Position numbers and translations under genes: made by a program
Shown: in pieces, positions 14,236-25,547 of the stretch
How positions within the stretch are numbered: position 1 is the first letter of the stretch
Layout of the letters: each line of letters starts with the position of its first letter
Notes under the pieces: model-generated
The model's database searches: none
The model's input: only the letters and a program-made list of their open reading frames with translations
What the model was told of the DNA's origin: nothing
DNA from: Minisyncoccota bacterium
GTDB lineage: Bacteria > Patescibacteriota > Minisyncoccia > Phycocordibacterales > UBA12079
DNA: 51,395 nucleotides
Direction: 5' to 3'
NCBI GenBank assembly: GCA_023129575.1
Contig: JAGMBS010000005.1
Location: 1 to 51,395 of the forward strand

Positions 14236-14331
14236 CGGTCAAATACTAACATAACCGGCGGTTTTTTGCAATATAATAACGGAATTTGGAATGTCGCGCA
14301 ATATCTAACGGTTTTATAGTATAATGTGATT

Positions 14332-15231
14332 ATGAATTTACGGCAATTAAAACGGGAATATCTGGAATATTTGGAAATTGAGCGGGGGCGGAGTTTGAAA
14401 ACGATTGAGAATTATAACCGCTATATGGATTGTTTTTTGGATTTTTTAAAAAAAGACACGCCATTAGCGATTACGGATGAAATTGTCAGAAAATTTCGCC
14501 TGTGGCTAAATCGGCAATCAGTCGGGGCAAAACAGGGGACCCTCAAAAAGACAACCCAAAATTATTATTTAATCGCTTTGAGGGGTTTTTTGAAGTATTT
14601 GGCGAAAAGGGGCGTGGCATCTTTGGCGCCGGAACGGATTGAATTGGCGAAAGTGGGCGAAAGATCTTTGGATTTGATTTCAATTGGGGAATTAAGGCGA
14701 TTATTGAACGCGCCGAATGAAAATGTTTTGAAAGGATTGCGGGATAAGGCGATTTTGGAACTTTTATTTTCCACCGGTTTGCGGGTTTCGGAATTGTGCG
14801 CGCTCAATAACGATATTGATTTGAATAAAGATGAAATGTCGGCGCGAGGGAAAGGGGATAAAGTGAGAGTGGTCTTTTTTTCCGAATTCGCCAAAAAAGC
14901 GGTTAAAAAATATCTAACTGAGCGGAAAGATATGAGCGAAGCGTTATTTGTTTCTTTGCCCAATCAAAGGTCGGGTGAAAATAGCCGTTTAACGGCTCGG
15001 TCGGTGGAAAGAATTGTCCGGTATTACGCTGTCAAAGCGGGCATTACAAACAAGGTTACGCCCCATATAATTCGGCATTCTTTTGCAACTGATTTGCTTC
15101 AAAACGGGGCGGATTTACGTTCGGTGCAAATAATGCTGGGGCATTCCAATATCTCCACCACCCAGATTTATACCCATCTGACGGACAAGCATTTGAAAGA
15201 AATACATAAAAAATTTCATAATAGGAAATAG
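14332..15231 (+). CDS. XerC/XerD-type tyrosine recombinase
   Basis: LLFSTGLRVSELCAL, HIIRHSFATDLLQNGADLRSVQIMLGHSNISTTQIYTHL. Confidence 0.92.
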   Translation: MNLRQLKREYLEYLEIERGRSLKTIENYNRYMDCFLDFLKKDTPLAITDEIVRKFRLWLNRQSVGAKQGTLKKTTQNYYLIALRGFLKYLAKRGVASLAPERIELAKVGERSLDLISIGELRRLLNAPNENVLKGLRDKAILELLFSTGLRVSELCALNNDIDLNKDEMSARGKGDKVRVVFFSEFAKKAVKKYLTERKDMSEALFVSLPNQRSGENSRLTARSVERIVRYYAVKAGITNKVTPHIIRHSFATDLLQNGADLRSVQIMLGHSNISTTQIYTHLTDKHLKEIHKKFHNRK

Positions 15232-17995: not shown

Positions 17996-18079
17996 ATTGT
18001 TCCCAATAATTTTTGAATTTTTCCCGATTTTTTGCTATCATATTATTCGTAATTCCCGACGTTGTCGGTCGGGGCAATT

Positions 18080-18151
18080 GCCCTTGTAGTGAAATGGATA
18101 TCACAACGGTCTTCGGAACCGTTATTGCGGGTTCGAATCCTGCCGGGGGCA
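18080..18151 (+). tRNA. tRNA-Arg (anticodon TCG)
   Basis: Acceptor GCCCTTG/CGGGGGC, anticodon arm ACGGT-CTTCGGA-ACCGT, T-arm GCGGGTTCGAATCCTGC. Confidence 0.88.
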
Positions 18152-18171
18152 CAGACGAGCAAAGCGAGGAT

Positions 18172-18315
18172 GTGGCCACGGCAGGATTCGAACGGAACTT
18201 TTCCGCCGTAAGGATTAAGGAAAAGCCCGTGGTTTCGGAGGAGCCGCGCGAGTATATCGTGAATTCGTGGAACGATACGAGCGTGGCGGGGGAGAAGGAA
18301 TCCTACCGGGGGCAC
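18172..18315 (+). ncRNA. candidate structured RNA element directly 3' of tRNA-Arg
   Basis: closing stem GTGGCCACGGCAGGATTC/GAATCCTACCGGGGGCAC (15/18 paired) plus two internal hairpins; strands duplicate and invert the tRNA-Arg T-arm. Confidence 0.45.
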
Positions 18316-18347
18316 AAGTAAAATCGGCCACGCAATAGCCAACCATT

Positions 18348-22807: not shown

Positions 22808-23785
22808 GTGATAAAAAATAACAAACAAAATTTAATAATTTACCAAACAAAAAGCGGAGAAATAAAATTCCGCGGGGATTTTGATCGTGATACGGTTTGG
22901 GGAAGTTTAAATCAAATTGCTGAGCTTTTTGATATTGATAAATCAGGTGTTTCAAGACATATAAAAAATATTTTCAAATCCGGGGAATTGAATGAAAATT
23001 CAACTGTTGCAAAAATTGCAACAGTTCAAAAAGAAGGAGATAAAAAAGTTAAGCGAGATATTGAATACTTTAATTTAGATGTTATCTTGTCGGTCGGTTA
23101 TCGTGTAGATTCAAAACAAGCAACCCAATTTCGCATTTGGGCGACCAAAACTCTCAAAAAGCATCTCGTAGACGGCTACACCATCAACAAAAAACGAATT
23201 GGCGCCAATTATCAAAAATTTCTGAAAGCTGTGGCGGATGTTAAGGCGCTTTTGCCTGCCGGGAACCGATTAGATACAAAAGATGTTTTAGAATTGATAA
23301 ACTCTTTCGCCGAAACTTGGTTTTCATTGGATGCTTACGATATGGAAAAATTTCCCAAAGATAAAATCACAAAAAAGCAAATTTCTTTTACGGCGGAGGA
23401 ACTTTCTCAAGCGCTCTTGAAATTTAAACAAGAACTTACAGTCAAAAAACAGGCGACAGAGATTTTTGGTCAAGAAAGAAATAAAAATTCAGTAGAGGGA
23501 ATTGTGGGGAATGTGTTTCAATCCTTCGCCAAAAAAGATTTATATCCAAATACGGAAGACAAGGCCTCGCACCTGCTGTATTTTATGGTCAAAAATCACC
23601 CCTTTGTGGATGGCAATAAAAGAAGCGGCGCTTTCGCTTTTGTGTGGTTTTTGCGCAAATCCGGTGTTTTGCGCGCCAGTTTAACACCGGAAGCTCTTAC
23701 AGCTTTGACTTTATTAGTCGCTGAAAGTAACCCAAAAGACAAAGACAAAATCACAAAATTGATTATTTTGTTGTTGAAAAAATAA
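22808..23785 (+). CDS. RhuM-like N-terminus fused to Fic/DOC-like domain
   Basis: DTVWGSLNQIAELFDIDKSGVSRHIKNIFKSGEL (RhuM); HPFVDGNKRSGAFAFVWFL (Fic HPFxxGNKR). Confidence 0.88.
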   Translation: MIKNNKQNLIIYQTKSGEIKFRGDFDRDTVWGSLNQIAELFDIDKSGVSRHIKNIFKSGELNENSTVAKIATVQKEGDKKVKRDIEYFNLDVILSVGYRVDSKQATQFRIWATKTLKKHLVDGYTINKKRIGANYQKFLKAVADVKALLPAGNRLDTKDVLELINSFAETWFSLDAYDMEKFPKDKITKKQISFTAEELSQALLKFKQELTVKKQATEIFGQERNKNSVEGIVGNVFQSFAKKDLYPNTEDKASHLLYFMVKNHPFVDGNKRSGAFAFVWFLRKSGVLRASLTPEALTALTLLVAESNPKDKDKITKLIILLLKK

Positions 23786-23836
23786 TTGGTTTGGCGTTTG
23801 AAAACAAGACGGTTTTTTGTTAAACTATTTTGAAAC

Positions 23837-23907
23837 GCGGGTATAGTTTAGTGGTATGACGCATCCTTGCCAAGGATGAGACGGGGTTTCGATTACCCCT
23901 ACCCGCA
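23837..23907 (+). tRNA. tRNA-Gly (anticodon GCC)
   Basis: Acceptor GCGGGTA/TACCCGC, anticodon arm CATCC-TTGCCAA-GGATG. Confidence 0.9.
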
Positions 23908-23936
23908 CAATTTTACTATATTTAAAATAAATAATT

Positions 23937-25547
23937 ATGGCTTCCAAATACTTATCGTCTCTTTCTAAAAAAGAATATCAGGATTTAACTGAAAAATTAT
24001 TAAGAATTCAAAATAATAAGTGTTTTATCTGTTGTAAAATCATTGATTCAGAAATTCAAGATACAAACATAGATCACATTGTTCCATTGGCAAATAGAGG
24101 TAAGGACTCAGAAGAAAATTTTGCAGTTACCCACGAAAGTTGTAATAAATCAAAACAGGATGCTAATTTAAAAATTGCAAGAATTTTACATAAACTTAAA
24201 GAAATTCAACAACAGGTTCGTGAAACGGAAAATAAATCTGCTTCTTTGAAACATGTACTCCAAAAATATGGTGGCTCAAAATATAATTTTAAATTTAAAG
24301 AAAACGGCAATTTAATTGAATACAGTTTTTCCGAAATAAATGATAATAATATTTACAAAACTGTAATTTTTACCGATCATCTCTCAAAAGAAAAATCTTG
24401 TTTTCTTGAAGTGCCATTGGAATATATTTATCATGATGAAATTATCAACCCAAGAGGTATCAACAGCAGTATAAGTAAACTCATTAAGGAATTTGATAAA
24501 GGAAATCCGCAACTTCATTTGGGTCTTGCAAGAATAGATAAAGGTCAACTAAAAATATTTGACGGGCAACACAAAACTGTTGCGCAAATTTTGTTAGGAA
24601 ATAAAAAATTAGTCATCAGAATGTTTATTCAGCCAGATATTGACAGATTAACTGAAACAAACACAAACGCAGGGAGCATTTTACGACAGATTGCATTTGA
24701 TAAATCTATAATGCGTCAATTAAATAATACACTTTATTCTGAACGAGTTAAAAAATATCAAGAAGATTTTAATTTAGATTCAGACAATTTTTCATTTTCC
24801 GAACAACAACTTATAGAACACTTTAGAGGAGAAAGTGCAAATATAAAAAAATACATCATTGACAGTATCAAACATGCAATTACAAATGAAAAAGAGAATA
24901 AATTAAAAGATTACATTGATTTTGAAGGTAGAGCAAAAGAATTACCTATTTCTTATAGTGCTTATGATAAAACAGTGCTTGCTAATTTTATTAATTCTAA
25001 ACTTATTTTAAAAACCCCAATTAATCATAAATCAGACGAGGGGTTAAATCCAAGAGAATTAGAAATAAAACAGATAGTTGAATTATTAAATATAATTGCA
25101 GAAGAAATATATATAAATAAATTCCAACCAGAAATTGGTGTATCTCGTATTGAAAACAAAATCATTAATCATAAAGATGCCGATATCACAGATAACCATC
25201 TTGTTGCTTATAGAATAAGCAGGGAAGAAATATTATTTAATTGGCTTATTTACTTAAAAGAGGTAATTAAAGTGTATTTTACGAATACTGGAAAAATATT
25301 TGATGAAAAAAAGGTCTTTCAATATCAGTTTGATGAACAACTTTGGAAAAATATTCGCAACTTTATTAAAAACTTAAAAGAATTACCTCTCTGGAAAGAT
25401 AAAAGTATGGCAAGTACGGTTTTTGCTGGGAAAAATAATTATGAATATTGGAAAACCGTTTTTGCAACAGGTAAAAGTCCTGATGGAGTAGATATATTGA
25501 CCAAACCCTTAAATTTTATTGAAATGATTAACGATCATAATGAATAA
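23937..25547 (+). CDS. HNH endonuclease domain fused to a DGQHR/ParB-like domain
   Basis: CFICCKII...NIDHIVPLANRGKDSEENFAVTHESCNKSKQD (HNH); GQLKIFDGQHKTVAQILLGNKKLVIRMFI (DGQHR-like). Confidence 0.75.
   Translation: MASKYLSSLSKKEYQDLTEKLLRIQNNKCFICCKIIDSEIQDTNIDHIVPLANRGKDSEENFAVTHESCNKSKQDANLKIARILHKLKEIQQQVRETENKSASLKHVLQKYGGSKYNFKFKENGNLIEYSFSEINDNNIYKTVIFTDHLSKEKSCFLEVPLEYIYHDEIINPRGINSSISKLIKEFDKGNPQLHLGLARIDKGQLKIFDGQHKTVAQILLGNKKLVIRMFIQPDIDRLTETNTNAGSILRQIAFDKSIMRQLNNTLYSERVKKYQEDFNLDSDNFSFSEQQLIEHFRGESANIKKYIIDSIKHAITNEKENKLKDYIDFEGRAKELPISYSAYDKTVLANFINSKLILKTPINHKSDEGLNPRELEIKQIVELLNIIAEEIYINKFQPEIGVSRIENKIINHKDADITDNHLVAYRISREEILFNWLIYLKEVIKVYFTNTGKIFDEKKVFQYQFDEQLWKNIRNFIKNLKELPLWKDKSMASTVFAGKNNYEYWKTVFATGKSPDGVDILTKPLNFIEMINDHNE

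Follow-up and report, generated by a model that had tools for sequence, protein, structure and literature searches.

Integrative elements that use tRNA genes as their sites leave the tRNA intact and are accompanied by a direct repeat that reaches from the T-loop to the tRNA 3' end. The closest known layout to that of the element described here is found in the E. coli tyrT repeats (RF00391, rttR), which lie downstream of a tRNA, each unit having direct copies of the tRNA 3' end as its boundaries. Their tandem copies are 178 bp apart, and the closing stem of a unit is formed by an inverted T-stem (GGGGAAGGAT) and a direct copy (ATCCTTCCCC). RtT has been described as an RNA that is released from tRNA operon transcripts (PMC4986893) and whose structure covaries (PMC7657543).

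Here, a stretch of 51,395 nucleotides (the window) from a 654 kb genome of an order of the Patescibacteria, assembled in 48 contigs, was analyzed. Downstream of its tRNA-Arg(TCG) lies an element that is laid out as the tyrT repeats are, with direct copies of the tRNA 3' end as its bounds and an inverted T-stem in its closing stem (Table 1). The unit consists of a modular core, made up of the hairpin arms P2 and P3, which is closed by a stem of two tRNA copies, the inverted copy I and the direct copy D2. We consider it probable that this unit is a non-autonomous palindromic mobile DNA cassette that is anchored at tRNA 3' ends and whose arms are copied, or copied anew, from the host tRNA. In its descriptive part the original prediction for this locus holds up well. 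The predicted inverted copy of the T-arm, GGCAGGATTCGAAC, is the exact reverse complement of the T-arm segment and is located at 18180-18193, one position off the predicted 18179-18192. The direct repeat of the tRNA 3' end (18135-18153 and 18298-18316, 19 nt) carries the single mismatch that had been noticed, and both internal hairpins are present. The inverted pair can be extended to 23 nt with 91% complementarity (18131-18153 and 18171-18193).

Table 1. Features of the tRNA-Arg(TCG) locus, given as positions in the window.
Feature	Position	Strand	Basis
Host tRNA-Arg(TCG), 3' quarter serving as arm template	18080..18152	+	ARAGORN; Rfam tRNA 62.9 bits
D1, tRNA segment from T-loop to 3' end, first direct-repeat copy	18135..18153	+	repeat comparison
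Spacer separating the tRNA from the inverted arm; in other members it often forms a terminator-like hairpin	18154..18170	+	
I, copied in inverted form from T-loop, T-stem and the 3' strand of the acceptor; forms the 5' side of closing stem P1	18171..18193	+	repeat comparison; identity profile of 40 elements
P2 hairpin of the type-A core, ACGG..CTTTTCC / GGAAAAG..CCGT	18192..18230	+	consensus fold; covariation
P3 arm, type-A core, with a terminal hairpin and an internal loop rich in purines (GGAGGA facing GGGGGA)	18233..18297	+	consensus fold; covariation
D2, tRNA 3' quarter copied in direct orientation; forms the 3' side of P1	18298..18316	+	repeat comparison; identity profile
Complete type-A element	18171..18318	+	covariance model R1 (built from five sequences, the window copy among them), 128 bits, E 9.4e-33

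The element belongs to a class that is large and real. The same succession of D1, spacer, I, structured core and D2 recurs behind other tRNAs of the same genome and of relatives. A direct copy with at least 16 of 21 positions identical to the tRNA's own 3' quarter was found within 300 nt downstream of 9 of the 30 testable tRNAs of the genome, as compared to 0 of 30 upstream. Together with the strong covariation in relatives presented below, this shows that the element is more than a chance arrangement. About two thirds of the tRNAs of this genome are without an element, and blastn detected no second copy of the window element in it. At least two types of core can be clearly delimited, namely type A, to which the window element belongs, and type B, which in the same genome is located behind tRNA-Trp, -Lys, -Thr, -Val, -Gly and -Gln. 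Hybrid units, in which an A-type P2 is joined to a B-type P3, also occur (L096 and L107). Of the genomes of the order that were searched with covariance models, 22 of 397 contain type A and 144 of 247 contain type B, several genomes having at least 13 type-B matches each. Type A was furthermore found in five genomes outside the order, and both types occur in other classes of the phylum. The host tRNAs in our sample represent 28 anticodons. Among 82 type-B elements from nine genomes, 54 directly follow a tRNA and 9 more lie further downstream yet match the tRNA, while the remaining ones mostly still have tRNA-like 3' ends; a tmRNA as the missing upstream gene of these orphan elements was not found. 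The matches of a pattern scan across named genomes mostly came from Patescibacteria, including Paceibacterota and Candidatus Campbellbacteria; of three records from outside the Patescibacteria, one is a genuine member and two are chance matches. The phage and plasmid collections searched contained no match to the element. In Rfam, tRNA was the sole family reaching the gathering score, the window region otherwise giving sub-threshold chance matches. A search of the open literature on Patescibacteria/CPR returned no paper describing such elements, and one may exist elsewhere.

Several further observations concern the make-up of these loci. Additional core types C and D were recognized by eye behind tRNAs (L068, L069, L070, L013, L071, L073), core C ending in CTGAACATGTAATGTTCGATTCC and core D having the form GGGGTCGGGA..TCCCGTGGAGGA. 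Two tRNAs of the window genome, tRNA-Lys(TTT) (L037) and tRNA-Arg(GCG) (L059), are followed at a distance of about 30 nt by short direct copies of their 3' ends without a core, which probably are decayed units. In spacers and at hairpin ends, GAGCGAAGCGAG and hairpins capped by GCGAAGC are recurrent (L041, L046, L049, L038 and others); d(GCGAAGC) is a very stable DNA mini-hairpin. Genome G002 contains two decayed units of type B (L200, L201), each behind a different tRNA, that both run into GGTGAGATGC.ACCT.TGGGAGCATTGCAAGATCCTTTTGAGAT, perhaps a further repeat.

The arms of the elements match the tRNA next to which they are located. On average, D2 agrees with the adjacent tRNA at 16.8 (type A) and 15.6 (type B) of 21 positions, as compared to about 10.7 for other tRNAs. 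In an identity profile of 40 elements, D2 is 82-92% identical to the tRNA at positions 57-73, with a sharp fall on the T-loop side, and partial identity continues for three positions past the discriminator (80, 60 and 52%). In the same profile, I is 80-95% identical at tRNA positions 54-63, where it has a sharp edge, and its identity declines along the acceptor. At cells where D1 and D2 differ, I fits the tRNA in 41 cases and D2 in 5. Thus, the arms are slaved to the tRNA and do not coevolve with each other.

Recent movement of the element between tRNAs, with arms tailored to each of them, is well supported. A core has its nearest neighbour within the same genome in 32 of 63 cases, and this neighbour usually follows another tRNA; 7.3 cases are expected, and 2000 permutations gave no more than 22. 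One pair of cores in G002, of which one follows tRNA-Asn and the other tRNA-Pro, shares 96% identity, the arms of each matching its own host tRNA, and the identity extends from the T-loop TCGAA to a CGA, beyond which the arms differ. In genome G045, the cores behind tRNA-Arg(TCT) and tRNA-Ser(TGA) are 97% identical and again have tailored arms. An accessory hairpin between the inverted acceptor and the inverted T-stem is also common to this pair, while the tRNA-specific islands around it have been replaced. Cores so nearly identical behind two tRNAs of the same genome indicate that the cassette moves and is re-fitted to each tRNA. Units are also arranged in arrays, and a 176-bp unit behind a tRNA-Pro is exactly duplicated in tandem. 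The tRNA-Arg(TCG)-CCA-adding-enzyme locus carries type A, B, C or nothing, depending on the genus. The elements are not created by fragmented assembly, as they are also found in the single-contig genome G005. A clean pair of filled and empty sites from sister strains was not found, and no excised circle was seen.

Conservation and covariation in relatives had been named beforehand as the test on which the structure would stand or fall, and the structure passes it. For five type-A elements aligned with MAFFT and folded with RNAalifold, 23 of 46 consensus pairs show double compensatory changes. In larger alignments, which are biased towards the model because they were fitted to it, 88.5% of the cells pair for 21 distinct type-A sequences (67% in shuffles) with 214 double-change cells (68+-7 in shuffles), and 95.2% pair for 43 distinct type-B sequences with 272 double changes (76+-8 in shuffles); slid controls collapse for both types. 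The independent MAFFT/RNAalifold results for types A and B agree with these model-fitted alignments.

Helices that are maintained as RNA tolerate G-U but not A-C. In the helices of the elements, 58 G-U and 45 A-C cells were counted, whereas the acceptor stems of 164 tRNAs from the same genomes, used as a control, contained 51 G-U and 2 A-C. The element counts do not differ from symmetry (p 0.24) but do differ from the tRNA stems (Fisher 3e-8), both p-values being indicative because the cells are not independent. In a second, overlapping type-B set the counts were 28 G-U and 30 A-C. Thus, unlike that of tRNA stems, the pairing looks constrained as DNA and not as sense RNA. This strand-neutral pairing points to either a constraint acting on the DNA or an upkeep by hairpin-templated copying, and the DNA-level reading is favoured. 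After correction for composition, the folds of both strands are similarly stable (z of -3.6/-4.1 for the two strands of type A, -5.8/-5.2 for type B). The raw folding energy is better for the + strand, and this advantage was considered as evidence for an RNA and rejected, being removed by the composition control. When the window element is folded as a single sequence, the - strand gives a clear signal (z -3.1) and the + strand a weak one (z -1.2). The purine-rich loops of the + strand, as in functional RNA, count against the DNA reading.

These results bear on the possibility that the element is a small RNA comparable to RtT of E. coli. Such an RNA would be transcribed together with the tRNA, set free when the tRNA is processed, and act as a stable structured RNA, perhaps in stress signalling or as a sponge. 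The layout is that of the tyrT/rttR repeats, with an inverted T-stem, a branched core and a direct 3'-end copy, the element is oriented as the tRNA and its unpaired segments are rich in purines; RtT has moreover been described as an RNA from the tyrT transcript that is linked to how cells respond to amino acid limitation (PMC4986893). However, the G-U to A-C ratio and the equal folding of the two strands after composition correction speak against an RNA, and many members are located behind a terminator-like hairpin. In addition, the RtT covariance model (RF00391) gave no match at the gathering score in any of 61 related genomes, nor in the window or 10 other loci, although, as a control, it does match E. 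coli. We therefore regard an RtT-type RNA as unlikely, and the tRNA-linked non-coding RNA and the antisense or attenuator function that had been proposed from the sequence of the locus are unsupported.

The third original proposal, that an element integrated at the tRNA 3' end has left its footprint here, came closest, the unit probably belonging to a family of mobile cassettes at tRNA 3' ends. In another reading, the element would be the minimal footprint of tyrosine-integrase integrative elements; D1 and D2 would then be their attL and attR, located at the T-loop, and the core a site or relic of a satellite. A direct repeat of the tRNA 3' part is indeed present at both ends, its 17-20 bp from the T-loop to the tRNA 3' end correspond to the usual duplication of such elements, and arrays of units separated by direct repeats occur. 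Yet the 163-bp unit is too small for an integrase or any other gene, and an inverted copy as well as the re-tailoring of arms between tRNAs are not known from integrative elements, which makes this reading very improbable. The weakest reading, an attenuator or switch in which the inverted arm pairs with either the tRNA or the direct copy and the core decides between them, thereby tuning tRNA maturation, is likewise very improbable: the inverted arm can pair with either copy and follows the tRNA more than the direct copy, but wobble pairs are not preferred where it pairs with the tRNA (24 G-U, 21 A-C), the helices as a whole do not behave as those of a sense RNA, one core type serves tRNAs of many identities, and most tRNAs of the same genome do without it.

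A gene that could mobilize the element was also looked for, without success. The sole reading frames of the 163-bp unit run through the tRNA itself, and it contains no recombinase gene. Such frames of about 100 codons span tRNA and element in the window (18013-18321 on the + strand, 18043-18342 on the - strand) and are probably annotated as small hypothetical proteins. Y1 transposases were rejected as partners: no element adjoins the 30 Y1 loci inspected, some of which were also negative with model R1, and the co-occurrence of Y1 genes and elements is weak (odds ratio 2.0, p 0.013), 49 element-bearing genomes being without Y1. As side observations made by eye from the translations, a tyrosine recombinase-like frame of the XerC/D type is located at 14326-15231 of the window, about 2.8 kb upstream of the element, and RhuM/Fic-like and HNH-nuclease-like frames (22808-25547) flank tRNA-Gly(GCC) at 23837-23908, possibly as a small defence or mobile island.

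Returning to the mobile DNA cassette, we suggest that it spreads as folded DNA, either single-stranded or as a cruciform, the core being the mobile part and the arms copies of the target. The tRNA would serve as the template from which DNA synthesis, running across the universal and nearly palindromic T-loop sequence TTCGAA, copies or corrects the arms. In one possible route, both 3' ends of the core would be extended on the same tRNA template starting from this palindrome, so that one side would receive an inverted copy and the other a direct one. Alternatively, an element already copied could be corrected via repair of a hairpin between I and the tRNA gene, which would account for the islands that were replaced in G045. 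Arrays may gain and lose units through unequal recombination between D copies. For the host, the insertion looks benign as the tRNA stays intact.

It is possible, and we put this forward tentatively, that these units represent a new kind of mobile element, which carries no gene, inserts only at tRNA 3' ends, builds both of its ends from the 3' quarter of the target and occurs across much of the Patescibacteria, a principle it would probably have in common with the E. coli tyrT repeats. If true, much of the non-coding DNA beside tRNA genes in very small genomes would be accounted for, and the tyrT repeats, a long-standing puzzle, could be read in evolutionary terms. Furthermore, the comparison of G-U and A-C counts provides a simple and reusable test of strand symmetry that separates RNA from DNA constraint in covarying elements.

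Mobile elements usually have fixed ends and generate short target duplications. The ends of the present element would be re-made for each target, one of them in inverted form, which would call for a copying mechanism not known from described systems; we know of no described element that moves and re-fits itself to each tRNA in this way. REP/REPIN, BOX and ERIC sequences are likewise short, non-coding, palindromic dispersed repeats, sometimes modular, which are thought to be non-autonomous and are partly mobilized as single-stranded DNA by RAYT (Y1) transposases. In contrast to them, the present element is fixed at tRNA 3' ends with arms that match the host tRNA, and it is not found beside Y1 genes. 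The attC sites of integrons are active as folded single strands, conserve structure rather than sequence and occur in arrays, but the present element has no cassette gene and its arms are derived from tRNA. Integrative elements at tRNA sites share the direct repeat and the intact tRNA, whereas the present unit comprises only about 160 bp without genes, has an additional inverted copy and combines one core with many tRNAs. With the E. coli tyrT repeats it shares the layout, but the core differs in sequence and structure, the class extends over tRNAs of 28 anticodons in our sample with modular cores and recent copies between tRNAs, and its pairing looks constrained as DNA while RtT is described as an RNA.
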